Both the position numbers and the translations under genes were made by a program. The notes under the pieces are model-generated. The model saw only the letters and a list, made by a program, of their open reading frames with translations, did not search any database and was not told the DNA's origin. Positions 1,126-45,389 of a stretch of DNA of 57,281 nucleotides are shown piece by piece; position 1 is the first letter of the stretch; the number at the start of each line of letters is the position of its first letter. This DNA comes from a virus: IMG/VR virus record IMGVR_UViG_3300012950_000004, positions 1 through 57,281 of that record. One strand, given 5' to 3'.

Positions 1126-2343
1126 ATGTCAAACCTTCTTAACGAAGCTATTGTCGATGCGAAGGCATTGCGAGAAGCTGCATTAAAAAATGCAGAAACT
1201 GTTGTTATTGAAAAATATTCAGAGGAAGTAAAAACCACTCTGGAAAAGCTTCTTGAACAAGAAGATATGGGCGCTGCAATGCCCGATCTGGGAGCAGACC
1301 TCGGCGGTGGTGCCGATATGGGAGCCCCAATGCCGGATCTGGGAGCGGATCCTCTTACCGAACCCGGCGCAGAAGACGCCGGCGAGCCCCTTGATGACGG
1401 AGATAATATCCCATTAGCTGCTACCAACGATTTAGGAGATATGGAAGGGAAGAACCTTAAAGGATTCCCCGCAGACGGAGAGGACGTCGAGATCTCGATT
1501 GATTTGGGCGCCCTGCAAGAAGCTGTGCGTCAAATGTCCGAGGAAGAAGAAGTGGAAATCAACGAAGAAGAGTTGGCCAACATCCTGGGGCAAAGCATCG
1601 ACGAAGAGAAGATCGAAGAAGACGAAGCGTGGGAAGATGAGACAGCAGGCGACGGCGACCCCGCCGGCGGAGTTGCGGCACAAACGACAGCCGCAGCCGA
1701 CGCCATGGCCGACACAGATGATGGCGGATTGGCTATTGGCGAAAAGCGCCCAGAAAACGAAGGCATCGATGTCTCCAAGGCTGACCAATTGGTAGACGCC
1801 ATTATGGAACGTCTTACCGTCGATATGGGCGCCGATTTAAGTGGTTGGGCTGGTCGCTCATCCGAAGATATTAAGTATGCATTGTCGAAGGCGCTAGCGC
1901 ACCGACGCAGCACCGACGTGCAAGACGAATTAGAGATTATGAAGAAGGCTCAAGAAGAGTTAGTTTTCGAAAATAAACAACTCAAAGAGCAAACTTCACA
2001 ATATAAGCAAGCATTTCAAGAGCTTAAGGAGAATTTACAAGATGTAAACCTTTCTAACGCTCGCTTGCTTTATACGAACCGGGTTTTACGGAATACCTCC
2101 TTCAATGAGCGGCAAAAACAAAAGATTGCCGAAGCTATTTCCAGTGCCGGTTCTGTAACAGAGGCGAGAACTATCTATGATACACTTCAAAGCACAGTGG
2201 AGGCTAAGCCTAAGCGTAGCCCCAAATCACTAAGCGAAGCAATCACCAATCGTTCTTCTGTTATTCGGGCTTCCCGCGTAAGCGAGACGTCCTCAACCGA
2301 TCCGTGGACGGATCGGATGAAAAAACTAGCTGGAATAAAATAA
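1126..2343 (+). CDS. 22: Prohead core scaffold protein, T4 gp22-like
   Basis: A 405-residue, very acidic, mostly helical protein directly upstream of the major capsid gene, the place held by gp22 in T4. I chose the ATG at 1126 because AGGAG lies 8 bases before it; an in-frame upstream start at 1096 has no such site. The N-terminus (MSNLLNEAIVDAKALREAAL) and the KYSEEVKTTLEKLLEQE helix resemble scaffold proteins of marine T4-like phages as I remember them. Residues 45-75 hold an imperfect repeat of MGAxMPDLGAD. Residues 265-330 look like coiled coil. The protein would fill the prohead interior and be degraded during maturation. No protease catalytic motif is visible. Confidence 0.7.
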   Translation: MSNLLNEAIVDAKALREAALKNAETVVIEKYSEEVKTTLEKLLEQEDMGAAMPDLGADLGGGADMGAPMPDLGADPLTEPGAEDAGEPLDDGDNIPLAATNDLGDMEGKNLKGFPADGEDVEISIDLGALQEAVRQMSEEEEVEINEEELANILGQSIDEEKIEEDEAWEDETAGDGDPAGGVAAQTTAAADAMADTDDGGLAIGEKRPENEGIDVSKADQLVDAIMERLTVDMGADLSGWAGRSSEDIKYALSKALAHRRSTDVQDELEIMKKAQEELVFENKQLKEQTSQYKQAFQELKENLQDVNLSNARLLYTNRVLRNTSFNERQKQKIAEAISSAGSVTEARTIYDTLQSTVEAKPKRSPKSLSEAITNRSSVIRASRVSETSSTDPWTDRMKKLAGIK

Positions 2344-2357
2344 TAATCATAAAATAT

Positions 2358-2368
2358 AAGGAGGTGAT
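2358..2368 (+). promoter_or_regulatory. Perfect extended Shine-Dalgarno site of the capsid gene
   Basis: AAGGAGGTGAT matches the complement of the usual bacterial 16S rRNA 3' end over 11 bases and sits 5 bases before the capsid ATG. This is the strongest ribosome binding site I see in the window and fits the most abundant virion protein. Confidence 0.85.
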
Positions 2369-2373
2369 TTAAT

Positions 2374-4137: not shown

Positions 4138-4193
4138 TATATAAGCATTTAGCATATATTAGCGCAAAAGCACGCCTAAACGTGACACAGAAA

Positions 4194-4227
4194 GCCCCCT
4201 CCCCGAAAAGGGAGGGGGTCTTCTTTA
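4194..4227 (+). terminator. Rho-independent terminator after the capsid gene
   Basis: CCCCCTCCC at 4195-4203 pairs perfectly with GGGAGGGGG at 4210-4218 across a 6-base loop, followed by TCTTCTTT. The 9-bp all-GC stem except one A-T pair is very stable. Confidence 0.85.
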
Positions 4228-4235
4228 TGGGTAAA

Positions 4236-4243
4236 ACTAATTA
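4236..4243 (+). promoter_or_regulatory. Putative late promoter element
   Basis: ACTAATTA, preceded by GGTAAA, lies between the capsid terminator and the next gene, 65 bases before its ATG. The placement after a terminator supports a new transcription start here. Confidence 0.45.
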
Positions 4244-4308
4244 AGAGAAAGGGTGGAGAGCCCTTTGTTAATTGACCTAATTAATATTCATATAAGGAGA
4301 AACATATT

Positions 4309-4797
4309 ATGGGAACAAAAAGAGTAGGTTGGGCTAGAATTAAGAGCCTGATTAACGAAAATCAAAATGCTTTAAAACATCGTCGTGCGACTTGTAAAAC
4401 CGCAATCACAGCAGATACCACTTTAGTGGCAGGAGATTACGGTTCGCTGATCTTATTAAATGGTACAGCGGCTTCGAACTTCGAACTCACGCTGCCGACA
4501 TCGCCGCCACTGGGGGCAGAATTTAAATTTACGCTTGTTGAAGCCAGCAACGCGGCTGCACAGATTTTGCTTGATAGTGGCGAAGACAACAAATTCGAAG
4601 GCTATGCAGTGATGTATAAGGCCGACCAGGAAGACGGAACCACAGCATTCCACAGTCATCGCAAGCTTGGCTGGGGCGATGCCGCTGCGAAAGGTGGATA
4701 CCTTCATGTTGTATGTATAGATGCGACAGCCGGCGCCGTTCGATGGGCGATTATTGACGCCAAGTCGAGTGTCGCTTGGATCAATGCACACGCCTAA
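4309..4797 (+). CDS. Virion protein, possible head decoration protein
   Basis: 162 residues, ATG at 4309 with AAGGAGA upstream. I do not recognise a named family. After a basic N-terminus (residues 1-27) it has one beta-rich domain: KTAITADTTLVAGDYGSLIL, ELTLPTSPPLGAEFKF, and a C-terminal AVRWAIIDA strand. This layout matches the last 100 residues of the fibre-like protein at 1-1047 (KTANHTLTSTDRVVVFNAG, then ASLPALTDAINGVVYTI). The gene has its own putative late promoter and is bounded by terminators on both sides, which suggests high and independent expression. A capsid surface or decoration role is inferred from position and fold type only. Confidence 0.55.
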   Translation: MGTKRVGWARIKSLINENQNALKHRRATCKTAITADTTLVAGDYGSLILLNGTAASNFELTLPTSPPLGAEFKFTLVEASNAAAQILLDSGEDNKFEGYAVMYKADQEDGTTAFHSHRKLGWGDAAAKGGYLHVVCIDATAGAVRWAIIDAKSSVAWINAHA

Positions 4798-4827
4798 ACC
4801 TTAAAATATATTTTTATATTTTTACCT

Positions 4828-4860
4828 GCCCCCCTTTCCTTTTTGGATTGGGGGGCTTTT
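4828..4860 (+). terminator. Rho-independent terminator
   Basis: GCCCCCC at 4828-4834 pairs with GGGGGGC at 4850-4856 over a 15-base loop and is followed by TTTTATT. It isolates the decoration-like gene from the next gene. Confidence 0.75.
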
Positions 4861-4930
4861 ATTGAAAACGCCGATCCTCCAAATTTTTTCCCCGGTAAAT
4901 TTTTGAGATTTTCGTTTTCGGGATTTTAAA

Positions 4931-20639: not shown

Positions 20640-21860
20640 ATGTCCACTTATTATATAAAAAGTTATAAAGAAAATAGCTCCAAACTTCTTTATAGTAAAA
20701 GGCTGCTTTATAAGGTTAAGATTAAGGAGCCTGAGTATGAAAACTTGTTTGATTTTACTTTCGCCGAAAAACAATTGTATGGGAGAGTAACACGCGTCTT
20801 TGAGCCCATGACTGTTGCTTCACGCCAAACCTTCAAGGGGATTGCTTCCGAAAGTGAAATAGCCTCTCCCCAAAGGGTGCTCCCATTCGTGGCAGATGCG
20901 TTTAACAAACTTAATCAGCAGTTTGCGAAAAAAGCCATGAAAAATGAAATTGATGTAAGTGATAAATACTTATCGACATTAACCGTTTATAAATCTTATG
21001 AAAGCCCTCAAAAGCTTTATAACGCCCACTTGCGCACGTACAAGGAGACGCTAGCAGATTCCTTTCGATCCCAAGGCGATCCCATTTCCAATTTTGATGA
21101 ATTTATAAGTCGCCTAATGCCGTCACTACGAAGAACAGCGTACAAGAATCCTTTTACAATGACCGCCTACGTGAAGAGTACCTTTTGTCCTATTAGTGTT
21201 TCTGGGTTGGCCATTGAGATTGCCAATCTCTCCTACATCAATGATGAGGAAAAAATTGCCCTCTTTAAGCGAAGCCCCAACTGGGAATTTTATTTAAATG
21301 CTTGCAGAACGTATGGGTTTATGGTAGACTCTAATGTGCCTTGGAGATTAATTGCCGATATTGGGAGTGCACAAATGGTAGAGTTTGCTAAAAAATACGA
21401 ACTATACAGCACAGATGAAATTCTTAACGGAGTATACAATAAGGTCGCCCCACGTTATTTTAAGCAAATGCAGATAGGATTATACGAGTTGTACAACATG
21501 TCTAAAAAAATGACCTATACTCAGAGCATCTGCGCCGATGGAACATTGCGAATTACCCAGACGGATCCGGTTGAGTATTCCCTCTCTTCCTTTAAGGAAG
21601 CCTATGGCGAACAATACTTTTTAAAGCTGTATTTTCAAATTCGCTTTCTGGAGGAAGAATCACCATTCACCCCCCAGGAACAATTGGCACTAATTGACGA
21701 TTGTTTGGAGCTTGGGTCCTTCAGCGCCGGCCACGCAATTAATATTTTTGAAAGAATTCTCAACAAAACGTTTGACTATAACGGTAGTTTAGATTATATT
21801 GTAAAGAAGCGTAAAGAACTGGAGTCGAATGACAGCGAAATACTTCCAAGCTCTGGATGA
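20640..21860 (+). CDS. Putative virion structural protein
   Basis: 406 residues, ATG at 20640 after AAGAGA. I recall similar proteins annotated as virion structural proteins in marine myoviruses but know no function. It is rich in Tyr, Phe and Lys, has no Cys cluster or nucleotide-binding motif, and seems mostly helical (for example SNFDEFISRLMPSLRRTAYK and NWEFYLNACRTYGFMVDSN). It is the last gene of the structural block and its final 32 bases overlap the DNA polymerase gene, so the two are co-transcribed and possibly coupled. Confidence 0.5.
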   Translation: MSTYYIKSYKENSSKLLYSKRLLYKVKIKEPEYENLFDFTFAEKQLYGRVTRVFEPMTVASRQTFKGIASESEIASPQRVLPFVADAFNKLNQQFAKKAMKNEIDVSDKYLSTLTVYKSYESPQKLYNAHLRTYKETLADSFRSQGDPISNFDEFISRLMPSLRRTAYKNPFTMTAYVKSTFCPISVSGLAIEIANLSYINDEEKIALFKRSPNWEFYLNACRTYGFMVDSNVPWRLIADIGSAQMVEFAKKYELYSTDEILNGVYNKVAPRYFKQMQIGLYELYNMSKKMTYTQSICADGTLRITQTDPVEYSLSSFKEAYGEQYFLKLYFQIRFLEEESPFTPQEQLALIDDCLELGSFSAGHAINIFERILNKTFDYNGSLDYIVKKRKELESNDSEILPSSG

Positions 21861-23028
21861 CAAAGAGCAGTGCGTAGGGATCTATAAAGACGGTACCCTC
21901 CACTTTGATAATTTTCCTGAAAATTGCCTAAGAACATGGCGATACTCCGGATCTTTAAAAGACGAAAACATTGAGTATGGGTGGCTATATGCCGCCGGCG
22001 ACTCTTTAGAAGAAGTATGCCCTTCCCACCTTAAAGAACAGCATGAGCGCCTTTCGCGCAAAATGAATGCGTTTCGCAAATCGTTTGATATTGCTAAGAT
22101 TAATTTTCGCGATCATTGTTTCTATGATTTGGTTCCCCATGACTTTCTTATAGAATTTTTAGAATTGAAAAATCAGATTACTGAGCACGTATTTGAAAGT
22201 TATGAAAAGCCAGCTAATTATGAATTTCTAGTCGGAGCGTCTAAGCTGCTGCATAAGATTCGATACCAAGAGTTGAATGTCAACAATGAAGGATGTAAGA
22301 GTCTGTTCTTGCAGCATCACAATCGCTCCCAGGCGCGCCAAATTCTTGAAGGGTCTCACTATATTGATTACAAGTTGTTTGGAACCGTAACGGGGCGCCT
22401 TGCGACTCACGGCGGATCCTTTCCCATATTAACTTTGAAAAAGGAATTTAGAAACTTGATAAAGCCCAAGAATGATTGGTTTTTATCTTTTGATTATAAC
22501 GGAGCAGAGGCGCGCACCGTGATAGCCTTATTAGACCATGAGCAGCCCGAAGGTGACATTCACGAATGGAACATGGAGAATGTTCTAAATGCCACGGGAA
22601 ACATAACCCGCGAAGAGGCGAAGACCCTCTTCTTTAGTTGGTTGTACAATCATGTTTCCAGCGCATTTGAATCTGAGGTTTATGATCGCGAAGCTTTGGT
22701 GGAACAATTTTATATCGATGGATACGTTCACACCCCACTCGGACGCAAGATTAAAATTGATGAACGTCGCGCCTTCAACTATCTCATTCAAAGTACCACG
22801 GCGGACTTGGTTTTAGAGCGCTCCATGGCGATAGATCGGTATTTGAGCGATAAAAAATCATACATCTCTCACCTTATCCACGACGAGGTAGTAATCGATC
22901 TTTGTGATGACGAAAGAGAAATCGTCCCTGAACTGAAAAAGATTTTCGCCCAAAATAGCCTCGATACGTACGAAGTTAATGTACAGGCCGGCGAAACGTG
23001 TTATGAGTTAGGAGTATTGCGCTTATGA
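21829..23028 (+). CDS. Short family A DNA polymerase (Pol I-like)
   Basis: 399 residues; ATG at 21829 with GGAG upstream, inside the end of the previous gene. It holds a polymerase core only. Upstream of motif A, FGTVTGRLA and FPILTLKKEFRNLIKP match the T-x-TGRL and R-F blocks of family A. Motif A is FDYNGAEARTVIALL with Asp at residue 222. Motif B is degenerate: TREEAKTLFFSWLYN, with Arg, Lys, Phe and Tyr kept. Motif C is LIHDEVVID with His-Asp-Glu at 351-353. There is no 3'-5' exonuclease domain, and the whole protein is about half the size of T7 polymerase. The window also encodes DnaE, so this enzyme may do lagging-strand repair or gap filling. Confidence 0.85.
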   Translation: MTAKYFQALDDKEQCVGIYKDGTLHFDNFPENCLRTWRYSGSLKDENIEYGWLYAAGDSLEEVCPSHLKEQHERLSRKMNAFRKSFDIAKINFRDHCFYDLVPHDFLIEFLELKNQITEHVFESYEKPANYEFLVGASKLLHKIRYQELNVNNEGCKSLFLQHHNRSQARQILEGSHYIDYKLFGTVTGRLATHGGSFPILTLKKEFRNLIKPKNDWFLSFDYNGAEARTVIALLDHEQPEGDIHEWNMENVLNATGNITREEAKTLFFSWLYNHVSSAFESEVYDREALVEQFYIDGYVHTPLGRKIKIDERRAFNYLIQSTTADLVLERSMAIDRYLSDKKSYISHLIHDEVVIDLCDDEREIVPELKKIFAQNSLDTYEVNVQAGETCYELGVLRL

Positions 23029-23947: not shown

Positions 23948-24712
23948 ATGTCAATTAATATGGAACTAATGAGAAAGAAGCTTTCCCAACTACGGGGAGA
24001 GTATGATAAGGAGCAATCTGCTTGGTTTAAGCCCGACGAGGGCGATCAAGATATTCGGATTGTCCCATCAACAGATGGGGACCCACTAAAGGAGATGTAT
24101 TTCCACTATAATGTCGGAGATCATCGAGGTGGAATTGTCTGCCCCAAGCGCAATTTTGGCGAGAGTTGTCCGATTTGTGAGTTTGCCTCATCCTTGTGGA
24201 AGGAAGGTACGAGCAACAACGATGAAGAGAGCAAGAAGCTTGCAAAGTCTCTTTTCGTTCGGGCGCGCTATTTCTCGCCCGTAGTAGTACGCGGACGAGA
24301 AGCCGAAGGAGTCAAGATCTACGGCTACGGCAAGCGCGCCTATGAAAATCTTTTGGGTTACATTCTGGACCCCGACTATGGAGATATCACAGATGCACTA
24401 GAGGGTACTGATATCGCCCTAACCTATACAAAGCCCACCACCCCGGGGGCTTACCCGCAGACGAGTCTAAAGATGCGCCGCAATACGTCACCGCTTCTTG
24501 AGGACAAGGAAGCCATCCCAGCCCTCCTTGATGGTATTCCTGATTTTGATTCTCTTTTTGAGCGTCATACTCCGCAGCAAATTGATGCCATCTTGGATGA
24601 GCAACTTGCTGGAAATGGAAGCGCTGAATCACGCTCGAAGGAAACCGCTAAATACGGCAGCAGCAAAACTGATGTGGACCGAGCGTTTGACGAATTGTTG
24701 GCCAATAAATAG
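23948..24712 (+). CDS. 32: Single-stranded DNA-binding protein, T4 gp32-like
   Basis: 254 residues with AAAGGAG before the ATG. The N-terminal helix (MELMRKKLSQLRGEYDKEQS), WFKPDEGDQDIRIVPS and the zinc-type cluster with His near residue 52 and Cys in CPKRNFGESCPIC match gp32, where His64, Cys77, Cys87 and Cys90 bind zinc. The core has FVRARYFSPVVV and LDPDYGDITD, a gp32 hallmark. The C-terminal 40 residues carry a Ser-rich linker and an acidic end (VDRAFDELLANK) used in gp32 to contact other replication proteins. It has its own promoter and terminator, as expected for a protein needed in large amounts. Confidence 0.9.
   Translation: MSINMELMRKKLSQLRGEYDKEQSAWFKPDEGDQDIRIVPSTDGDPLKEMYFHYNVGDHRGGIVCPKRNFGESCPICEFASSLWKEGTSNNDEESKKLAKSLFVRARYFSPVVVRGREAEGVKIYGYGKRAYENLLGYILDPDYGDITDALEGTDIALTYTKPTTPGAYPQTSLKMRRNTSPLLEDKEAIPALLDGIPDFDSLFERHTPQQIDAILDEQLAGNGSAESRSKETAKYGSSKTDVDRAFDELLANK

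Positions 24713-24764: not shown

Positions 24765-24765
<1 letters not shown>
24731..24765 (+). terminator. Rho-independent terminator after the SSB gene
   Basis: GGCACCC at 24731-24737 pairs with GGGTGCC at 24752-24758, followed by GCATTTT. The T stretch runs straight into the tRNA, so readthrough or separate processing must supply the tRNA. Confidence 0.65.
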
Positions 24766-24839
<74 letters not shown>

Positions 24840-24860: not shown

Positions 24861-25046
24861 ATGAAAGAAGAAGTAAACATGCTTGAGGATCTAATCGCCC
24901 AGCTTATCGCTGCCCGTTCAGATTATAACAAGTTCTACAATGATGGCAACAATGCCGCTGGTACTCGCGTGCGCAAGGTCATGCAGGAAGTTAAGAATGT
25001 GGCCCAAGAACTCCGCATTGATATTCAAAATACTAAGAACTCTTAG
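24861..25046 (+). CDS. Small Hc1/histone H1-like protein
   Basis: 61 residues, ATG with AAGGAAGG upstream. The pattern LIAQLIAARSDYNKFYNDGN, then NAAGTRVRKVMQEVKNVAQE and LRIDIQ, resembles the N-terminal helical hairpin of chlamydial Hc1 and phage proteins of that type (KGNKAAAQRVR in Hc1). The basic Lys/Ala tail of full Hc1 is absent. The role could be DNA or protein binding in replication. It sits between the tRNA and the D12 methyltransferase with only 3 bases to the latter. Confidence 0.6.
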   Translation: MKEEVNMLEDLIAQLIAARSDYNKFYNDGNNAAGTRVRKVMQEVKNVAQELRIDIQNTKNS

Positions 25047-25049
25047 CGT

Positions 25050-25847
25050 ATGAAGACTCCCCTCCGCTATCCCGGCGGCAAGTCCCGAGCAGTTAAGCAT
25101 ATCTTGCCGTATATTCCCGAGGACGTTCCGCGTCTTTGTTCGCCATTCTTTGGCGGCGGGTCTGTGGAACTGGCGATAGCCCAGCGAGGCAGTGAGGTGT
25201 TCGGGTATGATAAGATGAAGCAGCTAGTCTGGTTTTGGCAAGCACTCTGCGCCGACAACAACCGTCTCGCAGACGAGGTAGAGAAACTGCAGGAGCAATA
25301 TCAAATCAGATCGGGGGAGATGGTAACAGGATGCGTGAAAGAGTCATTTCATCAATATCGAGACGATCTCAAAACCGATTCATTCATGTTTTCTTACGAA
25401 CGCGCTGCCAAATATTATGTAATTAATCGGGCTTCCTTCTCTGGCGCTACATTTAGCGGCGGCTGGTCTGAGCGAGCATCATACGCAAGATTCACAGAGT
25501 CTTCTGTGCAGAGATTGCGAGACTTCAAAGCTAAAAACTTTAGAGTTGATTACGCCGACTTCGAACATGCTATTTGGGCTCATCCGCAAGCTTTTTTATA
25601 TCTTGATCCTCCATACATGCTGGAAGGATCTCAAAATTCTCTTTATGGCGTGGATGGAAACCTACACGATTCGTTCGAACACGAAAGACTTCACCGCTTG
25701 TTGAAAAGAAGGACCGACTGGGTGATGTCGTACAACGACTGCAGCCAGATTAGAGATATGTATTGTGATAATAAAATCATTGAGGCTGAATGGTCCTACG
25801 GAATGAACAAAAGTAAAAAGTCTTCAGAAGTGATTATTCTGGGTTGA
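25050..25847 (+). CDS. D12-class adenine-N6 DNA methyltransferase (Dam type)
   Basis: 265 residues. Residues 5-13 LRYPGGKSR and 33-40 FFGGGSVE are the N-terminal and SAM-binding motifs of the D12 class. FGYDKMKQLVWFWQ is motif II-like. NRASFSGATFSGG is the conserved N-R-x-x-F-S/N-G block. DPPY at 186-189 is catalytic motif IV. The closest well-known members are Dam (GATC) and T4 Dam, but specificity cannot be read from the sequence. The gene precedes a helicase and nuclease pair; its stop lies in that pair's promoter. A degenerate paralogue lies at 52102-52875. Confidence 0.92.
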   Translation: MKTPLRYPGGKSRAVKHILPYIPEDVPRLCSPFFGGGSVELAIAQRGSEVFGYDKMKQLVWFWQALCADNNRLADEVEKLQEQYQIRSGEMVTGCVKESFHQYRDDLKTDSFMFSYERAAKYYVINRASFSGATFSGGWSERASYARFTESSVQRLRDFKAKNFRVDYADFEHAIWAHPQAFLYLDPPYMLEGSQNSLYGVDGNLHDSFEHERLHRLLKRRTDWVMSYNDCSQIRDMYCDNKIIEAEWSYGMNKSKKSSEVIILG

Positions 25848-25872
25848 CAAACACTATCAAGTTCGCTATATT
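25844..25872 (+). promoter_or_regulatory. Sigma70-like promoter of the helicase-nuclease pair
   Basis: TTGACA at 25844-25849, 17-base spacer, TATATT at 25867-25872. The -35 box contains the stop codon of the methyltransferase gene. An AAAGGAGGGG site and the helicase ATG follow within 20 bases. Confidence 0.8.
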
Positions 25873-25890
25873 AAAAAGAAAGGAGGGGAG

Positions 25891-27459
25891 ATGCCCACAA
25901 AAATTTATGATAACCAAAAAGTCGCAGCTAACGAGATATACGAACGCTTGACGGTCCACCAGGATCCTTGTGTTTTGCTAACAGCGCAGCCACAAGTTGG
26001 CAAAACCGGCGCCGTCATAGAGTTGTGCAACCTGCTGTATGACGGTGAGGAAAAATACGCAGTATTATATTTTAGTCCGTCCGATAAGCAGCTATATTTT
26101 CAAAGCAAGGAGAGATTTTTAGAATATCCTAAAGCTTATGATTTGTTGCTCGGCTCCAATATTTACCATGACGGACAAATTTATCCCGGAGAGAGAGGAA
26201 AACAATTCCAAGAATTAGTACAGTTTATTAGAATGATTTTTGTATTAGGGAAAAAGCTTCTGGTCATCCGCGACGAAGCTCATATCGGAATTGGTGGAAA
26301 TAAAAGAAAGGAATCGCTTCAAAAGATTCCTCAATTCCTAGAAGATATTTGCGAGAGTTTGCCCGGCACCCCCAATGTGCACGATCGGGTACAATATTTG
26401 CTGGTAACAGCAACTCCATTTACATATGATTTTCAAATCAATGGGGAAAAGGCTAAAATTACAGAAATTTATCTTCCCCATGGGCAACGTTATGCAGGCG
26501 CCCAACATCTATTAGATTCCGGACGCATCTTGCCTCACATTAGTCGCACCAAGCCTCCCAATGGGCTTACCTTGGTAGAAAAAAAGGAATATATTAAAAA
26601 CGATAACGATCAGTTTGTCGCACGACTATGGGCGCTAATCAAAGAGCAGTTCACTCCTGACCGTACGGGCTACTTTGTGGTTCGGTGCACAAATCGCAAG
26701 GACTTAAGACTTTTCGAGCGAGCATTCCTAAAAAGTAATATTGACTATGAGGTTTATGAGTCGGCTACGAGCAGTATTCCCGATTTTGAACGACAGCTGA
26801 ACGAAAAGCCGACCGGTCCAAAAATTCTCCTTATTAAACATTCCTACAAACAAGGTAAGACCTTGTGCCTTGATCATGTGGTGGGGTGGTATGAAAATGA
26901 TACCACCAATGGCCGCCATGACGCGGATATTGCTCAATCTGTAGGAAGATCGTTCGGATATGATAAAAAGGATTATGACTTTCCCATCTATTGTGATGTG
27001 CAATCGATAGTTAAGCTTATTGACTATTATGATTTATGCAAGATGAAAGATTTTGCTTCAAAGCGCGAATTGCCCATGTCATCCACACACACAACGTGGA
27101 AAGCTAAAATGGTTAAAGATAGGGATTATCAGGTATGTGTAAACAAAGAACAAGCAGAGCAGGTTTATAGAAATTGGCACCCCGAGTATCAAGGATCTTT
27201 CAACACCACGAAGGTGTCGACTAACAACGCCTATGATGTTATCGAAGCTGTAAAAAATAAAGCCACGCGCCAAAAGACGTCCAACCGAGTAAATCTCATA
27301 TATATCGACAAGCCTAACAAAGCTTACGTAGACTCGTTCATGGGCGTCCCACACTGGCATGGAAGGTGGATTGTCCTATATGAGACCGGCAACAGCACCC
27401 CACAGTACGAGGCTAAAGACAAGTCATATTTCTCTGCTCGCGGAACGGCAGCTAAATGA
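25891..27459 (+). CDS. SF2 DEAH-box helicase/translocase, restriction-type
   Basis: 522 residues. Gln9 may form a Q-motif. Walker A is AQPQVGKTG with Lys38 and Thr39. DEAH is at 128-131, motif III LVTATPF at 171-177, a second RecA-like domain follows, and motif VI is QSVGRSFGYD with Gln349 and Arg353. The GRSFGY ending of motif VI recalls Z1-domain ATPases found in restriction-type gene clusters, but this is a comparison from memory. The gene has its own promoter and overlaps the following nuclease gene by 4 bases, so the two products are likely made together and act together. It differs from T4 UvsW and Dda in layout. Confidence 0.82.
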   Translation: MPTKIYDNQKVAANEIYERLTVHQDPCVLLTAQPQVGKTGAVIELCNLLYDGEEKYAVLYFSPSDKQLYFQSKERFLEYPKAYDLLLGSNIYHDGQIYPGERGKQFQELVQFIRMIFVLGKKLLVIRDEAHIGIGGNKRKESLQKIPQFLEDICESLPGTPNVHDRVQYLLVTATPFTYDFQINGEKAKITEIYLPHGQRYAGAQHLLDSGRILPHISRTKPPNGLTLVEKKEYIKNDNDQFVARLWALIKEQFTPDRTGYFVVRCTNRKDLRLFERAFLKSNIDYEVYESATSSIPDFERQLNEKPTGPKILLIKHSYKQGKTLCLDHVVGWYENDTTNGRHDADIAQSVGRSFGYDKKDYDFPIYCDVQSIVKLIDYYDLCKMKDFASKRELPMSSTHTTWKAKMVKDRDYQVCVNKEQAEQVYRNWHPEYQGSFNTTKVSTNNAYDVIEAVKNKATRQKTSNRVNLIYIDKPNKAYVDSFMGVPHWHGRWIVLYETGNSTPQYEAKDKSYFSARGTAAK

Positions 27460-28181
27460 AAACACCCGCAGCATTCGGCAAACAAAGCGAGGAGTGTACA
27501 ACTCTGCGCCTCAATGAATACTTTGCGCGCCAAAATCTTCCATGGACAGCCACAACGAAAGGAGGATCTTCTCACGTTAGCGATATCCGAGTAGAAGACA
27601 GAGATACAGGCGAAAAGCTCTATTCCATGGAAGATAAGAACAGCTTCGGTACCAGAACTGATTACGGACAATTTAGAATTTCTTATGATCCGGAGAAAGG
27701 TTGGCAGCAAGCAACTGGTCGCGACAAATTAGAATTAGTAACGGTTTTTGCTTTTTTGAAGCCACGCCTCGATAAGCAATTGCGGGGGAATTTCCCACAC
27801 GGACCTCGCATCAGCGCCTTAGAAGCACAAGAGTTTTGGGACGTATACGAACCCGGAAGAACTCGTAGCATCTCAGGAGACGTGCTGAAAATCCCCATTG
27901 CTCCCGAGGTTATAGCCTCTTATTATGCGAATAAGGGCGACAAATACATTAAGATAGGGGAACACGTATACGGTCTCGAAGAAGGAGAGCTGTTGCCATC
28001 TCTTGCGGGATTGATAAAGGAGGCTTATGCTCTTTTTAGAATCAAGTATCACAACAAGCGCACCCACAATAGCCACTCGTATACAGTCGCACTGCGCCTT
28101 AAATGTGATAGCACCGATGAGACAGCCTTCAACGAGGCTATTAAAAAAATCCACCCATCACGGTTGACGTCGCTTTCATGA
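27456..28181 (+). CDS. PD-(D/E)XK-type nuclease, partner of the DEAH helicase
   Basis: 241 residues, coupled by an ATGA overlap to the helicase gene. I do not recognise a named family. The first 65 residues show the nuclease pattern: helix TLRLNEYFAR with Glu21, turn KGGSSHVSD with Asp43, strand, then SMEDKNS with Glu59 and Lys61, giving E-x(21)-D-x(15)-ExK. The C-terminal half is mixed alpha/beta without a known motif and may bind DNA or the helicase. Together with the upstream methyltransferase this makes a restriction-like set. The alternative is a DNA-processing nuclease in recombination, as UvsX follows. Confidence 0.65.
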   Translation: MKTPAAFGKQSEECTTLRLNEYFARQNLPWTATTKGGSSHVSDIRVEDRDTGEKLYSMEDKNSFGTRTDYGQFRISYDPEKGWQQATGRDKLELVTVFAFLKPRLDKQLRGNFPHGPRISALEAQEFWDVYEPGRTRSISGDVLKIPIAPEVIASYYANKGDKYIKIGEHVYGLEEGELLPSLAGLIKEAYALFRIKYHNKRTHNSHSYTVALRLKCDSTDETAFNEAIKKIHPSRLTSLS

Positions 28182-28192
28182 CGTGTTATAAT
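28164..28192 (+). promoter_or_regulatory. Sigma70-like promoter of uvsX, extended -10
   Basis: TTGACG at 28164-28169, 17-base spacer ending in TGT, perfect TATAAT at 28187-28192. The start codon of uvsX is 22 bases downstream. Confidence 0.85.
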
Positions 28193-28213: not shown

Positions 28214-29341
28214 ATGGCTAGAAAAGCTAAGCCCCCCAAAGCTGGTAGGGTTTCGATGCAAGACTTAATGACTCTTGTTAATAAAAAAGCTGGCAGAAAT
28301 GTAGCGCACAATCTCACAGGCGAGAACCCAACCGAAGTAAAGGAATGGATCTCAACGGGATCCCGATGGCTTGACTCCATCATCTGCAAGGGAAAGGTGG
28401 CCGGCATTCCAGTCGGCAAGGTCACAGAACTAGCAGGGCTGGAGAGCACTGGTAAATCCTACATGGCAGCACAAGTAGCCGCAAACGCCCAGAAAACGGG
28501 CAAGATGGTCGTCTACTTCGATTCCGAGTCTGCCATCGACCCCGGCTTCTTGGAGCGAGCAGGATGCGACCTAGAGCGCTTAATGTACGTTCAGGCGTCC
28601 TCCGTGGAGTTTGTGCTGGAAACAGTGGAAGAATTGCTCGGAGCAACCGATGAACAGTTATTGTTTATCTGGGACTCTCTGGCGCTTACTCCATCTGTGT
28701 CGGATGTAGAGGGAGACTTCAATCCCCAATCCTCAATGGCAGTGAAGGCTCGTATTCTCGCCAAGGGAATGTCAAAGCTGATCATTCCCATTGCGGACAA
28801 GCAGGCCACATTTCTGGTTCTCAACCAGCTTAAAACCAATATTCCCAGCGGACCTAACGCTCGAATCATCGCGATGACCACCCCATACATGACCCCGGGC
28901 GGCAAAGCAATGCACTATTCGTATTCTCTCCGCATCTGGCTAACAGGGCGTAAAGCCAAGTCAGCCTTCATTGAGGATGAAAAGGGATTTCGAATCGGAT
29001 CCGAAGTTAAAGTTAAGCTAGAGAAGTCTCGATTTGGAACTCAAGGCAGAAACTGTGCTTTCCGTATCCTCTGGGGTACCGAAGACATTGGTATCCGCGA
29101 TGAGGAAAGCTGGTTTGACGCAGTGAAGAGTTCAGAGTGCCTAACTTCTGCCGGCGCATGGTACACGCTTAAGATGCCCGATGGGTACGAGAAGAAGTTC
29201 CAACCCTCAAAGTGGACCGAGATCATTCAAAACGACGAAGAATTTAAGAATAACATCATTAAGCTAATGGATGAAGAGGTTGTTCAGAAGTTTGATCGAC
29301 GAGAAGGATCCGCCGACCAATTCTATTCAGATCCTGAATAA
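28214..29341 (+). CDS. uvsX: UvsX/RecA-like recombinase
   Basis: 375 residues, AAAGGAGA before the ATG. Walker A GLESTGKS is at 75-82 and Walker B-like QLLFIWDSLA follows near 147. Other RecA-type blocks are VVYFDSESAIDPGFLERAG, TFLVLNQLKTN (motif with the Gln switch) and TPGGKAMHYSYSLRI. The C-terminal part (SAGAWYTLKMPDGYEKKFQP) matches UvsX-type ends. It promotes strand exchange in recombination-dependent replication, loaded on ssDNA coated by the gp32-like protein. Confidence 0.93.
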   Translation: MARKAKPPKAGRVSMQDLMTLVNKKAGRNVAHNLTGENPTEVKEWISTGSRWLDSIICKGKVAGIPVGKVTELAGLESTGKSYMAAQVAANAQKTGKMVVYFDSESAIDPGFLERAGCDLERLMYVQASSVEFVLETVEELLGATDEQLLFIWDSLALTPSVSDVEGDFNPQSSMAVKARILAKGMSKLIIPIADKQATFLVLNQLKTNIPSGPNARIIAMTTPYMTPGGKAMHYSYSLRIWLTGRKAKSAFIEDEKGFRIGSEVKVKLEKSRFGTQGRNCAFRILWGTEDIGIRDEESWFDAVKSSECLTSAGAWYTLKMPDGYEKKFQPSKWTEIIQNDEEFKNNIIKLMDEEVVQKFDRREGSADQFYSDPE

Positions 29342-31798: not shown

Positions 31799-33766
31799 AT
31801 GAGAACAATTCAGAATATCCGCAGGTTTAGATTATCAGATACCTTCGTGGACCCATACAAAGATGCCGAGGTCCCCTGGGGACCTCTTGGATATGTGACG
31901 TTTAAGCGCACTTATTCACGCCGATTGAGCGAGTTCGATCCCGAAGCCACAGGCTCGGAAGAGTGGTGGCAAACGTGCCGTCGCGTGGTCGAAGGGATGT
32001 TTAACATGCAGAAACAACACGTCTTCCAGCTGGGTCTTGAGTGGAACGACAGCAAGGCGCAAAAGACAGCCAAAGAGGCTTATGATCGCCTTTTCAACCT
32101 TAAGTGGACGCCCCCCGGCAGAGGGCTATGGATGATGGGTACCAAATTTGTCGAAGAAAGAACTGCCGCCGGACTTTTTAATTGCGCTTTTCGTTCAACC
32201 AGAGACTTGTCAACCAAGGGCGGTTACCTCTTTGCATGGATGATGGACGCTCTAATGGTCGGTGTGGGCGTAGGCTTTGACACCGAAGGCGCCGGTACCG
32301 TCACCATTCAGGAGCCGGAGTATACGAACGATACATTGTTGATCGACGATTCTCGCGAGGGCTGGGTAAATTCAGTACATACAGTACTGGATGGATTCTT
32401 CTTTGGATCCAAGGTTCCTAAGTTTGATTATTCGGCCATCCGCGAGTTGGGCGCTGAGATTAAAGGATTTGGAGGAACCTCCAGCGGTCCTGCGCCTCTC
32501 ATCGAGTTGCACGAAAACTTAAAGGAACTGTTTTCATCCAAGATTGGAGAGTCTATCACATCGGTAGATATTGTGGATACAGAGAACCTTATTGGGAGAT
32601 GCGTGGTGTCTGGCAATGTACGCAGATCCGCAGCGCTAGCTATGGGTCGCCCACATGATATGCGGTATCTTGAAATGAAAAATGATCAGGAGAAGCTTTA
32701 TCATCACCGATGGGGATCTAATAACTCCTTCAATGCCGAAGTGGGAATGGATTATACATGGCACGCAGCACAGAGCCAAAAGAACGGCGAGCCCGGATAT
32801 ATTTGGTTGGACAATGCACGCACCCGCGGACGCTTTAAAGATGGACCCCGCTACGACGACATCAACGTGGCAGGCTTTAATCCCTGCGTGGAACAACAAC
32901 TTGAAGATGCTGAGCTGTGTTGTCTGGTCGAGACTTATCCGGCAAAACATGACGATCTAGAAGACTATCTTCGTACGCTTAAAATTGCTTACTTGTACGG
33001 CAAAACCATTACTCTTTCCAACACACACTGGCCAGAAACCAATGCTAAAATGCTTAAGAATCGTCGCATTGGGCTCTCTCAATCTGGAGTTGTACAAGCT
33101 TTTAATAAGTTTGGTCGCCGCGCAATGTATGACATGTGCGATAAGGCATATGCGCACGTTAAACAATTAGACGAAGAATATTCTAACTGGCTGTGTATTC
33201 CTAAGTCGATTCGAATGACTTCGATCAAGCCTTCTGGAACAGTCTCGCTGCTAAACGGCTCTACCCCGGGAATTCATTTTCCAGAGAACGAGTATTATAT
33301 TAGACGTATCAGGTTCTCCAATACTTCGAATTTAATTGACAAACTTAAAGAAGCAGGTTATACTGTAGAAAATGATGAATACTCTCCGAACACTTCTGTT
33401 GTCGAGTTTCCTGTACATGAGCCCTATTATTCCCAAGGGAAGAAGGATGTCTCTCTCTGGGAACAGCTTGAAATTGCAGCCCAGTATCAACATTATTGGG
33501 CCGATAACTCTGTGTCTATTACGGTCACGTTTAAGCCGGAAGAGGCTTCTCAAATCAAAGCTGCGCTTGAATTATATGAAACTCGGCTTAAAGCCGTCTC
33601 CTTTCTTAAGTACGAAGAGACAGGATATAAGCAGGCGCCCTACGAGCCTATAACCAAAAAGAAATACGAACAAATGAGTGTCAAAATTTCCCCTCTTACT
33701 CGCGCCAAGGATAGCGCCGGAGGCGAAGGCACTAAGTTCTGTACAAATGACACATGCACAATATAG
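31799..33766 (+). CDS. nrdJ: Adenosylcobalamin-dependent (class II) ribonucleotide reductase, monomeric type
   Basis: 655 residues, 5 bases after the helicase gene. It aligns with the Lactobacillus leichmannii enzyme (739 residues) at all catalytic residues. The redox pair is Cys129 and Cys374, the thiyl Cys is Cys363 in NPCVE with Asn361 and Glu365, and the C-terminal pair is Cys648 and Cys653 in FCTNDTC. Spacings 361/363/365, 363-374 and 648-653 equal those of the Lactobacillus enzyme. IKPSGTVSLLNGSTPGIHF is the conserved PSGT loop. It makes deoxynucleotides and needs B12 from the host. The thioredoxin at 43982 could reduce it. Confidence 0.93.
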   Translation: MRTIQNIRRFRLSDTFVDPYKDAEVPWGPLGYVTFKRTYSRRLSEFDPEATGSEEWWQTCRRVVEGMFNMQKQHVFQLGLEWNDSKAQKTAKEAYDRLFNLKWTPPGRGLWMMGTKFVEERTAAGLFNCAFRSTRDLSTKGGYLFAWMMDALMVGVGVGFDTEGAGTVTIQEPEYTNDTLLIDDSREGWVNSVHTVLDGFFFGSKVPKFDYSAIRELGAEIKGFGGTSSGPAPLIELHENLKELFSSKIGESITSVDIVDTENLIGRCVVSGNVRRSAALAMGRPHDMRYLEMKNDQEKLYHHRWGSNNSFNAEVGMDYTWHAAQSQKNGEPGYIWLDNARTRGRFKDGPRYDDINVAGFNPCVEQQLEDAELCCLVETYPAKHDDLEDYLRTLKIAYLYGKTITLSNTHWPETNAKMLKNRRIGLSQSGVVQAFNKFGRRAMYDMCDKAYAHVKQLDEEYSNWLCIPKSIRMTSIKPSGTVSLLNGSTPGIHFPENEYYIRRIRFSNTSNLIDKLKEAGYTVENDEYSPNTSVVEFPVHEPYYSQGKKDVSLWEQLEIAAQYQHYWADNSVSITVTFKPEEASQIKAALELYETRLKAVSFLKYEETGYKQAPYEPITKKKYEQMSVKISPLTRAKDSAGGEGTKFCTNDTCTI

Positions 33767-37539: not shown

Positions 37540-37841
37540 GAAAAGCATTTGGATGGATTGTGCATCGCGTGAAGCACAAACTTGCACACTTCCACCCTGC
37601 TCGGCTACTTGATACCCTTAAAGAACATGGCATGGCGCTAGTGATTATCATTGTAGGGTGGGAAATCATCGAAGACATTTTGTTTCCACTGCTGTTTATT
37701 TGGCTCGGTCACAACGTCAATCCATGGTTTATAACAGGCGCACCGGTAAGTTGGTTATTGTGTGCTCACCCTGTTGCTGTTCCCGTTCTGTGGGGACTTT
37801 GGATTAAAATTTCTGGGAGAGAAAATGAGAAAAGAATCTGA
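37536..37841 (+). CDS. Small membrane protein
   Basis: 101 residues. A basic amphipathic start (residues 1-30, with several Lys, Arg and His) is followed by two hydrophobic segments, about 33-57 (ALVIIIVGWEIIEDILFPLL) and 66-92 (ITGAPVSWLLCAHPVAVPVL), and a basic tail. It overlaps the previous gene by 4 bases and dnaE by 17. Size and topology would allow a holin, and the endolysin is 2.3 kb upstream, but there is no family evidence for that. Confidence 0.6.
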   Translation: MRKAFGWIVHRVKHKLAHFHPARLLDTLKEHGMALVIIIVGWEIIEDILFPLLFIWLGHNVNPWFITGAPVSWLLCAHPVAVPVLWGLWIKISGRENEKRI

Positions 37842-40800
37842 AATTAAGTTTGTTGGACTCCACGCGCATAATGTGGCTGGATCTATTTTTGACGCCCTTG
37901 GGTACCCACAAGCGCATATGGATTTTGCATATGAGAATGGGTGTGATGCTCTAGCACTAACAGACCACGGAAACATGAATGGGTTAGCCTATCAAGTCCT
38001 GCATGCAAAGAAGATGCAAGAAGCAGGAAAGGAGTTCAAGCCTATCTTTGGCTGCGAGGCTTACTTCACGCCCTCCATTGCCGAGTGGCACGAAGCCTAC
38101 AACAAAGCAATGGAAGACAAGAAGAAGGCACGCTCCATCAAGAAAGATGAACAATCTGGCGCCACCGTAGAAGATGAAGGAGATAGTAAAAAGACTCAGG
38201 GAATCTTAAAGCGCCGGCGCCATTTGGTTTTGTTGGCCCAAAATCAGAAGGGTCTTAACAACCTGTTCAAGTTGGTATCCGAATCCTACAAAGCAGAGAA
38301 TTTTTATCGCTATCCTCGCATTGATTACGCACTCCTAAAGAAGTACAACGAGGGCATTATAGCCTCGTCAGCATGCCTAGGAGGCGTTTATGCCGGGAAC
38401 TACTGGGAGAACCGGGACGACGGCGCCGAAGCCGTCCTAGAGGCAATGAGGGAGTCTACACGCCAAATGGTTAATATCTTTGGAGATCGCTGGTACGCCG
38501 AGATCCAATGGAACAATATCAAAGAACAACATGAATTAAACCAGTACGTGATTAAGATTGCTAAAGAGTTTGGTGTTGGGATTGTAACAACAGCCGATAG
38601 CCACTATCCCAATCCCGACGCTTGGAAGGATAGAGAGCTTTACAAGCGCCTTGGGTGGCTTGGCAAGGGGCGCCCCTCATGGGCAGAAGAAGAATCACAA
38701 CTCCCTGACGGCGTTGAGGAAATCGGCTACGAATTGTATCCCAAAAATGGGGATCAGATGTGGGAGAGTTATAAACAATACTCCGAGGAACAAGGCTTTG
38801 AATACGACGATGAAGTGGTTCTCCGGAGCATCGAAGAAACACACCGGATTGCATTCGATCGAATTGAATCGTTTTTGCCCGATAACACTGTGCGGTTGCC
38901 GGAATTCGTTGTACCGGCAGGATTCACGGCAACTCAAGCGCTTGTTAATTTTGCTTTAGAAGGGCTGAAAGAGCGCGGCTTTCACACGAACAAGGAATAC
39001 ACGGATCGTCTACGTCGAGAGTTGGGCGTGATTGATGAGCGAGGATTCTCAAAATACTTCCTAACTATGAAGTCGATTGTTGATGTGGCCACAGATATGA
39101 TGCTGGCTGGACCAGGCAGAGGATCCGCCGCCGGCTCTCTTGTGGCATATGCGCTGGGGATTACACAAGTGGATCCAATCAAGCATGGGCTTCTGTTCTC
39201 GCGCTTCCTGCGCTCAGACGCGACAGACTATCCAGATATCGATTATGATGTATCGGACAGCATGGCACTCAAGGAGAAGCTTGTTGATATGTGGGGCGCC
39301 GACTGCGTTGCCCCCATTTCCAACTGGAACACTCTGCAGCTCAAAAGTTTAATCAAGGATATCTCCAAGCTTTACAATATCCCATTCACGGAGGTCAACA
39401 CAGTAACCTCTATCATGATGAGGGAAGCACTACCAGAAGCCAAAAAGAAGCATGGCATTAAGTCGGGCATCTATGCCCCCACGTGGGAAGAGGTCATGGA
39501 GTTCTCGCCATCACTTCGCAAGTATTTGGCGATGCATCCGGCAGTCAAGACCCACGTTGAGGGCTTAGTCGGACAGGTGCGGTCTTGCTCTCGTCATGCC
39601 GGTGGGGTCGTTATCGCAGAGGATCTTGATAAGAATATGCCTCTAATCAACTCCGGAGGGGTGCGGCAGGCGCCATGGGCAGAGGGGCAGAACGTTCGAC
39701 ATCTTGAGCCGATGGGGTTCATTAAGTTCGATTTGCTAGGCTTGTCTACACTTAAAATGATGGAAGGTTGCATTGAGCATATCTTGCAGCGTCATCATGA
39801 CGTCGAGGCGCCTACGTTTACAGATGTATTAAACTACTACAATGAGCATTTGCATCCAGATGTAATTGATATGGACAATCAAGAAGTGTATGAAAACATA
39901 TTCCACGCAGGCAAGTGGGCTGGAGTCTTTCAATTCACAGAGTCGGGCGCCCAGAAGTTTTGTGTCCGCGCAAAACCCAGAAACATTATTGATGTGTCGG
40001 CTATCACATCCATCTATCGCCCGGGCCCATTGGCTGCTAATGTACACGATGAATATGTGGAAGCGAAGGAGAGCCCCCACTACATCAAGTATTTGAATGA
40101 AGACGCACACGATATCACACAAGAGACGTTTGGCTTTCTGATCTTTCAGGAGCAGATTGCGCTGCTGGCACACAAACTTGGAGGTCTGACATTGGACGAG
40201 GGCAACATGCTCCGCAAGGTGTTGACCAAGAAAGGTACCGGCAAGGGATCCGTCAAGGGCAAGCTGCACGATAAATTTATCTCTGGCTGCGCAGCAAACA
40301 AGATCGCAAGAGACGAAGCCCAAGCACTCTGGGATAAGTTCGAGTTTTTCTCGGGGTATGGCTTTAATAAGTCGCACGCCGTATCTTACAGCATCATTTC
40401 TTTCCAGTGCGCGTGGCTCTGGAATTACTATCCCGCAGAGTGGATGGCCGCTTTCTTGGACAAGGAGCCTGAGAGTCGCAAAGAAAAGGCGATTAATATT
40501 GCCAAGAAGTTTGGCTTCAAGATCGCGCCCTTGGACGTCAATAAGTCAGGCACAGTATGGGAGATTAGCGCCGACGGAAAGACCCTCATTCAGCCCCTCA
40601 CTTCAATTAAGGGATTGGGGATGGCTGCAATCGAGCAAGTGCTGGAAAATAGACCTTTCTTAAACGCCGAAGACCTATTGTTTCGCGAAGGAGTATCTTA
40701 TAGCAAGTTAAACAAAAAGGCACTTGACGCACTGTGTCGTGGAGGCGCCCTAGATCATATCGTCGACGATCGCTTTACAGGTCGAAAGCATTTTTGGTCT

Positions 40801-41253
40801 ACGTGCGTTGTGGAAAGACCTAAGAACCTTAAAAGGTTTAATGAAAACCTGGAGCTATATCGACCGGAAGGAGATTTTACGGAAGAAGAAATTATTCAGT
40901 TTAAGACAGACTTGACGGGCGTATTTCCTCTTAATCTCGTAGTGGACGCAGCGATGCTGCAAAGGCTTCACGAAAGGTACATACCCCCCATTTCAGAGTT
41001 TGATCAGGCGTTACAAATTTGCTGGTTTATTCCCCGCAAGATTGTGCCCAAGCAAACGAAGAATGGGAAACTTTATTGGATTGTAGAGGTTATTGATTCG
41101 AACAACGAACTAACTAGAATTAGATGCTGGGGTGTAAAACCCGAGAAGGATCGTATCCATCTCAACCGACCGTACATGGCATCCTTGAAATATGATCCGA
41201 ACTGGGGATTCAGTACGTATGCCATTGGAAAGACATTTAAACAACTAGGATAA
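37825..41253 (+). CDS. dnaE: DNA polymerase III alpha subunit (DnaE, family C)
   Basis: 1142 residues; I start at the ATG at 37825 (MRKESEIKFVG) after GGGAGAG, not at an in-frame upstream start inside the previous gene. The PHP domain has LHAHN (His13, His15), LTDHGNM (His48), GCEAY (Glu78), RRHLVLLAQN and TADSHYPN, so most metal ligands are kept. The palm has AGPGRGSAAGSL, YPDIDYDVSD with two catalytic Asp, and KFDLLGLSTL with the third. Fingers and later blocks (YRPGPL, FSGYGFNKSHAVSYSI) are typical. The C-terminus includes an OB-type strand region (LYWIVEVIDSNNE). It is a full bacterial-type replicase. Confidence 0.95.
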   Translation: MRKESEIKFVGLHAHNVAGSIFDALGYPQAHMDFAYENGCDALALTDHGNMNGLAYQVLHAKKMQEAGKEFKPIFGCEAYFTPSIAEWHEAYNKAMEDKKKARSIKKDEQSGATVEDEGDSKKTQGILKRRRHLVLLAQNQKGLNNLFKLVSESYKAENFYRYPRIDYALLKKYNEGIIASSACLGGVYAGNYWENRDDGAEAVLEAMRESTRQMVNIFGDRWYAEIQWNNIKEQHELNQYVIKIAKEFGVGIVTTADSHYPNPDAWKDRELYKRLGWLGKGRPSWAEEESQLPDGVEEIGYELYPKNGDQMWESYKQYSEEQGFEYDDEVVLRSIEETHRIAFDRIESFLPDNTVRLPEFVVPAGFTATQALVNFALEGLKERGFHTNKEYTDRLRRELGVIDERGFSKYFLTMKSIVDVATDMMLAGPGRGSAAGSLVAYALGITQVDPIKHGLLFSRFLRSDATDYPDIDYDVSDSMALKEKLVDMWGADCVAPISNWNTLQLKSLIKDISKLYNIPFTEVNTVTSIMMREALPEAKKKHGIKSGIYAPTWEEVMEFSPSLRKYLAMHPAVKTHVEGLVGQVRSCSRHAGGVVIAEDLDKNMPLINSGGVRQAPWAEGQNVRHLEPMGFIKFDLLGLSTLKMMEGCIEHILQRHHDVEAPTFTDVLNYYNEHLHPDVIDMDNQEVYENIFHAGKWAGVFQFTESGAQKFCVRAKPRNIIDVSAITSIYRPGPLAANVHDEYVEAKESPHYIKYLNEDAHDITQETFGFLIFQEQIALLAHKLGGLTLDEGNMLRKVLTKKGTGKGSVKGKLHDKFISGCAANKIARDEAQALWDKFEFFSGYGFNKSHAVSYSIISFQCAWLWNYYPAEWMAAFLDKEPESRKEKAINIAKKFGFKIAPLDVNKSGTVWEISADGKTLIQPLTSIKGLGMAAIEQVLENRPFLNAEDLLFREGVSYSKLNKKALDALCRGGALDHIVDDRFTGRKHFWSTCVVERPKNLKRFNENLELYRPEGDFTEEEIIQFKTDLTGVFPLNLVVDAAMLQRLHERYIPPISEFDQALQICWFIPRKIVPKQTKNGKLYWIVEVIDSNNELTRIRCWGVKPEKDRIHLNRPYMASLKYDPNWGFSTYAIGKTFKQLG

Positions 41254-44354: not shown

Positions 44355-45389
44355 ATGACCCACCCCACTTTGTCTTATGATGATGTGCTCCTTGTCCCTC
44401 AATATTCTGATATTAAAAGCCGCACTGAAATCGATATTGCGACCGATCTAGGAAAAAATTTAAAGCTCTCTGTTCCCGTCATTGCCTCTCCGATGGACAC
44501 CATTTCGGAAACAGCCATGGGTGTTGCGATGAGCCAGTATGGGGGAGTGGCGGTTATTCATCGTTATAATACTATCGCACATCAAGCGCGCCATGTCTCG
44601 ATGACTAAGGATTTTCAAGATGTGCCACAGCTTCAAGTGGGAGCAGCGATTGGTATTTCGGGAGATTATCAAGAGCGCGCCCAAGTTTTATTGTCGGTGG
44701 GTGTGGATTTCTTGTGTTTGGATGTAGCCCACGGACACCACATTATGATGAAGGAAGCGTTAGAACATTTACGCTCGGAATATGGCGCCGATCTTCACCT
44801 AATGGCCGGCAATGTCGCCACGCTGGAAGGCATTAACGACCTATCAGATTGGGGGGCGGATTCGGTGCGCTGCAATATTGGTGGCGGATCTATTTGTTCA
44901 ACCCGAATTCAAACAGGACACGGAGTGCCGGGCTTACAAACAATTATGGAGTGCGCCAAGACCGATCGTAATGTAAAAATCATCGCAGATGGAGGTATTC
45001 GTAACTCCGGCGACATAGTAAAGGCGCTAGCCGCAGGCGCAGACGCAGTCATGTGCGGCTCTCTTTTAGCCGGCACCAAAGAATCCCCGGGCAAGATTAT
45101 TCAAGATAAAGACGGACACCGGTGGAAACTCTATCGCGGAATGGCCAGCAAAGAAGCTCAAATTGAATGGCGCGGTAAATATTCTTCCTTTGAGGGGGTA
45201 TCCAGCACTGTACCCTATCGTGGTCCTATTAACAGTGTACTTGAAGATCTGGAGAAGGGAATCCGTTCTGGGTTCTCTTACTCTGGAGCCCGCAGCTTAC
45301 GAGAGTTGCATGCAAAAGCCCACTTTTTGATGCAAACCAACGCTGGTTTTTCTGAGAGTCGCACTCATATTTTAAATCGAGAGTGGTAA
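44355..45389 (+). CDS. IMP dehydrogenase / GMP reductase family enzyme without CBS domains
   Basis: 344 residues, one base after the thioredoxin stop. A TIM barrel with [47 protein letters not shown], the catalytic loop [17 protein letters not shown] with Cys181, [20 protein letters not shown] and the end [30 protein letters not shown]. The late blocks favour IMPDH over GMP reductase, but the flap lacks a clear Arg-Tyr pair and is short. No regulatory CBS domains are present between strands 2 and 3. It acts on guanine nucleotide supply. Confidence 0.82.

Follow-up and report, generated by a model that had tools for sequence, protein, structure and literature searches.

What are a DNA methyltransferase, a helicase and a nuclease doing side by side between the ssb and uvsX genes of a phage? 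The question is raised by IMG/VR virus record IMGVR_UViG_3300012950_000004 (57,281 bases, possibly a fragment; "the window" below means this whole stretch), in which an earlier note had seen either the parts of a restriction-modification system carried by a lytic phage or a DNA-processing pair. Complete restriction systems have rarely been documented in apparently lytic phages. Here we report that the three genes most probably form a phage-borne restriction-modification system directed at GGCC, with both methylation and cleavage predicted, and that the carrier is a T4-like tailed phage with the cassette slotted between ssb and uvsX, a conclusion we hold with good confidence as a whole. The gene set, its slot, the exchange of its parts among relatives and the loss of GGCC are read directly from the sequence.

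Homology of the methyltransferase and site depletion across the genome agree on one tetranucleotide, GGCC. The closest solved relative of the enzyme is M.CbeI (7M6B; E=4.7e-41 over residues 2–259), DpnII being a far weaker match (2.4e-7), and its full-length similarity together with a DPPY motif at residue 186 identifies it by sequence as a methyltransferase of the M.CbeI type. M.CbeI is the alpha-class N4-cytosine methyltransferase of the GGCC system CbeI and likewise carries DPPY (PMC8616854, PMC3425538). With expected counts taken from a maximal-order Markov model, the window holds 65 GGCC sites against 199 expected (observed/expected 0.33), and no other of the sixteen 4-base palindromes is strongly depleted. 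Ten long contigs carry this methyltransferase, the window and nine others, and in each of them GGCC is the most depleted 4- to 6-mer (for example 16 observed against 372 expected, 7 against 209 and 4 against 172). It is so in none of nine long contigs that lack the enzyme (ratios 0.85–0.99), among them carriers of other methyltransferases and a relative with 97% identity to the window in UvsX.

Grouping the fetched loci by cassette class sets their GGCC ratios apart (p=2.5e-13, uncorrected for kinship). The median is 0.08 where methyltransferase and nuclease occur together (30 dereplicated loci; pooled 152/758); six loci with the methyltransferase and no recognised nuclease are about half depleted (78/135), and the ratio is 0.89 with an empty slot (22 loci) and 0.94 with other content (25 loci). 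Common descent of the loci enters into these k-mer statistics. At least 8 changes of the trait are needed on a uvsX tree, and all eight contrasts of the best tree agree (sign test, two-sided p=0.008), a comparison that removes kinship only partly. Mere shared ancestry as the cause of the loss was rejected on these eight concordant, tree-independent contrasts, two of which lie on strongly supported branches. The sites that survive include hardly any AGGCCT and an excess of TGGCCA, an apparent flank effect.

The second line of evidence is the company that the nuclease keeps. We compared 80 IMG/VR loci selected by uvsX (85–97% identity) regardless of methyltransferase or nuclease; all close relatives are metagenomic contigs. 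A gp32-like ssb gene borders the slot in nearly all relatives, and the ssb–uvsX interval is between 66 bases and nearly 4 kb long, falling below 200 bases in 33 of the 78 loci having both flanks. The slot is thus hypervariable, being empty (about 70 bases) in some relatives and holding other cassettes in others. A nuclease of families NUC1–NUC4 is present in 11 of 14 distinct methyltransferase-bearing cassettes and in 0 of 20 other non-empty intervals (Fisher p=1.3e-6), the families having been defined after viewing the intervals, though not by methyltransferase presence. A separate scan based on the methyltransferase itself gave 80 loci; almost every copy sits in the ssb–uvsX interval, and in most cases the next gene downstream is a candidate nuclease. 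This gene belongs to NUC1 in L003, L071, L087, L092 and L127, to NUC2 in L006 and L015, and elsewhere to families X9, X16, X33 and X36, which have D...(S/E)xK-like patterns and are assigned as nucleases by motif only. In four distinct cassettes a helicase gene stands between the two, with NUC1 in the window and with NUC2 in L020, L084 and L129/L130.

Dozens of contigs repeat the pieces in this order and at this position, so the gene set is not a chance assembly, and the combinations seen indicate that nuclease and modifying enzyme are kept together while the helicase is optional. The earlier note had held that a helicase and nuclease widespread without a methyltransferase would speak against restriction; we looked for that pattern and it did not emerge, and in every cassette found the nuclease adjoins a DNA-modifying gene, either a methyltransferase or, in L001, Mom. 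This partner conservation and the avoidance, in the phage's own genome, of the very site of M.CbeI support the restriction-modification reading proposed there.

The same data bear on an explanation that we consider unlikely, in which the methyltransferase shields the phage from restriction by GGCC-cutting hosts, site loss is a second answer to those hosts, and nuclease and helicase do something else. Such a shield would be in keeping with the frequency of lone methyltransferases in phages, with three relatives (L115, L155, L162) that have this methyltransferase without a recognised nuclease, and with host-driven avoidance, which is common in virulent phages (PMC6286503). Yet methylation lessens the need for avoidance, and weaker avoidance is indeed seen in protected phages (PMC6286503). 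Depletion is, moreover, strongest where methyltransferase and nuclease occur together and weaker with the methyltransferase alone, so that it is better explained by a nuclease active in the phage itself than by a host enzyme, and a shield leaves unexplained why several nuclease families occur only beside methyltransferases.

That the 241-residue protein has a nuclease core is likely, from its motifs rather than from a fold match. Glu12, Asp43, Glu59, Lys61 and Gln72 are invariant among 12 aligned NUC1 proteins, and the order Glu, Asp, Glu-x-Lys (with Gln) is that of the PD-(D/E)XK motif. Of the catalytic residues first proposed, Asp43 and Glu59-x-Lys61 stand; Glu21 is not conserved, the invariant glutamate of helix 1 being Glu12. 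An AlphaFold model (predicted local distance difference test score, pLDDT, 80.9) has a long helix followed by strands with the Asp43-neighbouring and Glu59-x-Lys61 residues, so that structure prediction fits PD-(D/E)XK in the order of its elements and gives no match to a solved fold: a search of the PDB returned noise only. In BFVD uncharacterised viral proteins rank best, the first of them coming from Prochlorococcus phage P-SSM2 (template-modeling score, TM, 0.62), and an annotated viral PD-(D/E)XK protein matches weakly (prob 0.87, E 0.08). Neither NUC1 nor the other cassette nucleases have a Pfam match to GGCC restriction enzymes (HaeIII-, NgoPII-like). A search of annotated phages with helicase and nuclease returned nothing, no phage record matching NUC1, and scans of bacterial genomes found no relatives of either protein. 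NUC1 and NUC2 were also considered as one family, an idea rejected when profile comparison proved not significant (probability 1.7%).

The helicase displays the motifs GKT (residue 37), DEAH (128), TATP (173) and QSVGRSFGY (349), and five relatives keep GKT, DEAH/DESH, TATP and QSxGRxxGY, in agreement with its original description as a superfamily 2 (SF2) helicase with a GRSFGY-type motif VI. Similarity to ResIII and DEAD profiles is weak in the window protein, and weak profile matches recur in relatives; the structural model (mean pLDDT 52) is too poor for a fold search. The GRSFGY motif had raised the idea of a Z1 protein, which we do not claim, there being no Z1 match (PF10593) in the window protein or its relatives.

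Could helicase and nuclease instead work as a pair alongside UvsX and Ssb, in recombination or in the processing of DNA ends, with the methyltransferase next to them by chance? The position between ssb and uvsX, the 4-base overlap of the two genes and a solo helicase homologue in L085 (28% identity, the sole exception to a location between methyltransferase and nuclease) are all compatible with this, but we judge it very improbable. About 40% of close relatives have nothing in the slot, which makes the cassette genes dispensable; the nuclease occurs without the helicase and was not found without a modifying enzyme; the helicase partners two nuclease families, NUC1 and NUC2, that lack detectable similarity to each other; and the depletion of GGCC would be left unexplained.

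As for the chemistry, the enzyme had first been called a D12 adenine methyltransferase. The D12-class assignment (PF02086) holds; the adenine label is probably wrong, and the product is probably N4-methylcytosine (m4C) and not N6-methyladenine (m6A), to judge from sequence relationships, M.CbeI being the closest solved relative and the NCBIfam Dam model (TIGR00571) being missed at 76 bits against a cut-off of 114.85. A system that is restriction-modification all the same, but marks adenine in the Dam-like manner at GATC or another adenine site, would suit the Pfam D12 class, the DPPY motif and PADLOC matches to Type II methyltransferases, yet is the least credible reading, as the target GATC was rejected for want of depletion (279 observed and 279 expected in the window, and near expectation in most relatives), GGCC contains no adenine, and M.CbeI itself initially bore an adenine annotation (PMC3425538). 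In an ocean methylome GGCC is among the methylated motifs confined to viral, not cellular, bins, and the authors of that study lean towards the host as the source of most viral methylation (PMC9516812). We suspect an ocean origin for the window phage from its cyanophage matches.

Taking the cassette as a GGCC restriction-modification system, we infer the methylation chemistry, the cleavage, its coupling to ATP and the identity of the attacked DNA as follows. The methyltransferase would mark GGCC on phage DNA, probably as m4C, and the nuclease, with the helicase as ATP-driven partner, would cut DNA with unmarked GGCC; by analogy, the helicase may act like the N-protein of CglI, and ATP-independent cutting as in orthodox Type II systems is doubtful, given the helicase. 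The victim could be the host chromosome, the DNA of rival phages or both, and either type has precedent in large DNA viruses (PMC7253447). GGCC sites of the phage itself may have been mostly lost because the nuclease would also threaten new, still unmethylated phage DNA.

Several observations weigh against this proposal. No known restriction enzyme family matches the nuclease, nor does any solved structure, whether compared by fold or by sequence; most relatives have the nuclease without the helicase; and the distant homologue in L085 occurs without methyltransferase or nuclease. Strong support in the uvsX tree extends to only two of the eight contrasts. Seven empty-slot relatives (L066, L074, L076, L077, L080, L081 and L083) show mild GGCC depletion (0.44–0.62) with no cassette, for which recent cassette loss, or GGCC-cutting rivals or hosts, are alternative explanations, and GGCC-cutting hosts could also be what drives the avoidance more generally.

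The slot has further occupants. In L001 the interval (1884–4930) holds a GmrSD_N (DUF262) protein, a Mom-family DNA modifier and NUC1, possibly a system built on Mom modification in place of methylation. Two further methyltransferase–nuclease pairs occupy the same slot in L014, L019, L009, L054 and L069: NUC3, with weak MunI similarity below the cut-off, is paired with a second D12 methyltransferase and NUC4 with another methyltransferase, and target sites of these two pairs were not found. GHKL-type ATPase and ParB-like proteins are additional partners (L072:6375–7985; L006, L014, L073, L018), the ATPase recalling MORC-type restriction systems. Other strong k-mer avoidances, which suggest further restriction specificities among relatives, are GTNNAC/GTTAAC (G010, G012; L194–L202), CCAGG (G004–G006; L173–L184) and, in L206–L207, L226–L227 and L185–L189, GGNNCC (G015), AGCT (G018) and CAANNNTTG (G007).

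Cassette nucleases of several unrelated families open with a leader, MxMKPIMEGWRxYLxE (L003:1262, L127:4083, L108:6852, L128:1640, L097:5241, L134:6846, L136:3240 and L133), that resembles T4 capsid-targeting sequences with their L/I-x-E cleavage site; it occurs in 5 of 888 long open reading frames elsewhere in the same contigs and is absent from the window nuclease. A wider picture, which we put forward tentatively and think rather improbable in its entirety, is that this uncultured T4-like phage group uses a single slot as an exchange site for GGCC restriction weapons, combining one GGCC methyltransferase with many nucleases and optional helicase, ParB-like, DUF262 or GHKL ATPase partners. 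In many relatives, though not in the window, the nuclease has the capsid-targeting-like leader and, on this picture, may be packaged in the virion and enter the cell along with the methylated genome.

Coordinates in and around the slot are collected in the table. The three adjacent open reading frames of the module are as first described, as is the 4-base overlap of helicase and nuclease (ATGA at 27456–27459). The dedicated promoter proposed for these two genes is present in the window, TTGACA-17-TATATT with the methyltransferase TGA stop inside the -35 box, and is not conserved: in L020, L084 and L129 the helicase starts within a few bases of the methyltransferase stop, with no promoter. Since these other helicase cassettes couple the two genes directly, the promoter is local to the window phage, and we rejected it as a regulatory hallmark of the module. 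Homologues of orf61 lie in the slot of many relatives, including some without the methyltransferase, and the slot of L102 holds a tRNA-Glu, that of the window a tRNA-Met. Elsewhere the window encodes a family A DNA polymerase (21829–23028), a PolIII-alpha (DnaE-like) polymerase (37762–41253) and a class II ribonucleotide reductase (31799–33766); judged by eye from the initial residues alone, 49444–51024 resembles a GroEL chaperonin and 44355–45389 an IMP dehydrogenase.

Table. Features of the ssb–uvsX region of the window, with the basis of each assignment.
Feature	Coordinates	Strand	Basis or remark
gp32-like single-strand DNA-binding protein (ssb)	23948..24712	+	PF08804 3.6e-15; left slot boundary
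tRNA-Met(cat)	24765..24839	+	ARAGORN; within slot
orf61, small 61-residue protein, unknown function	24861..25046	+	often just before methyltransferase
Alpha-class amino-methyltransferase, predicted GGCC-specific, M.CbeI-like	25050..25847	+	PF02086 8e-31; DPPY at residue 186
Sigma-70-type promoter-like site TTGACA-17-TATATT	25844..25872	+	11/12 matches; overlaps methyltransferase stop
SF2 DEAH helicase/ATPase, putative accessory subunit	25891..27459	+	motifs; relatives' ResIII and DEAD matches
PD-(D/E)XK-type nuclease, family NUC1, 241 residues	27456..28181	+	invariant residues in alignment
Promoter-like site TTGACG-17-TATAAT	28164..28192	+	end of nuclease gene; reads into uvsX
UvsX/RecA-like recombinase	28214..29341	+	phrog_97 1e-58, PF00154 9e-35; right slot boundary

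How does the module compare with known systems? As in orthodox Type II systems, methyltransferase and nuclease are distinct genes, separated here by that of the helicase, and a short palindrome, GGCC, is avoided in the carrier genome. CbeI of Caldicellulosiruptor bescii (M.CbeI, R.CbeI, GGCC) is alike in methyltransferase, predicted site and separate genes, but consists of two bacterial genes, its nuclease being HaeIII-like, whereas the phage nuclease matches neither HaeIII nor any other known family in Pfam and is joined by a helicase. EcoP1I of phage P1, a Type III system, is a phage-carried restriction-modification system with helicase motifs, in a temperate phage, with helicase and nuclease fused in Res and the site AGACC. 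Type III systems pair such a Res fusion with a Mod methyltransferase, in contrast to the separate genes and D12 alpha-class methyltransferase of the window. The T4-like cyanophage S-P4 likewise has a D12 methyltransferase directly beside an annotated endonuclease (gp011–gp012), but its methyltransferase is about 34% identical to that of the window and the endonuclease falls outside NUC1.

CglI/NgoAVII (M, R, N) also has separate methyltransferase, nuclease and SF2 helicase/ATPase genes, and in CglI the separate nuclease depends on ATP hydrolysis to cleave DNA (PMC4267653). The features that distinguish CglI are a phospholipase D (PLD)-family nuclease with a B3 domain, a C5-cytosine methyltransferase, a Z1-domain helicase and the site GCSGC; none was found in the window module, NUC1 matching no PLD profile and the helicase no Z1. 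Chlorovirus and marseillevirus systems (CviAI, mel_015/mel_016) are, like the module, complete and virus-borne, and have been proposed to degrade host DNA or exclude rival viruses (PMC7253447); they differ in belonging to viruses of eukaryotes and modifying adenine in GATC, and the same source reports no helicase.

A single slot in which phages with and without the system can be compared, and genomes that themselves show the target, make the use of restriction-modification by phages against host or rival DNA directly testable, with several nuclease families without known relatives probably sharing one 4-base target. Phage-carried systems are already known, as are the virus-borne systems of chloroviruses and marseilleviruses; within the reach of these tools, the novelty lies in a slot for swapping cassettes in a T4-like phage group, in nuclease families that lack known relatives, in a helicase as extra subunit and in genomes that disclose the target.

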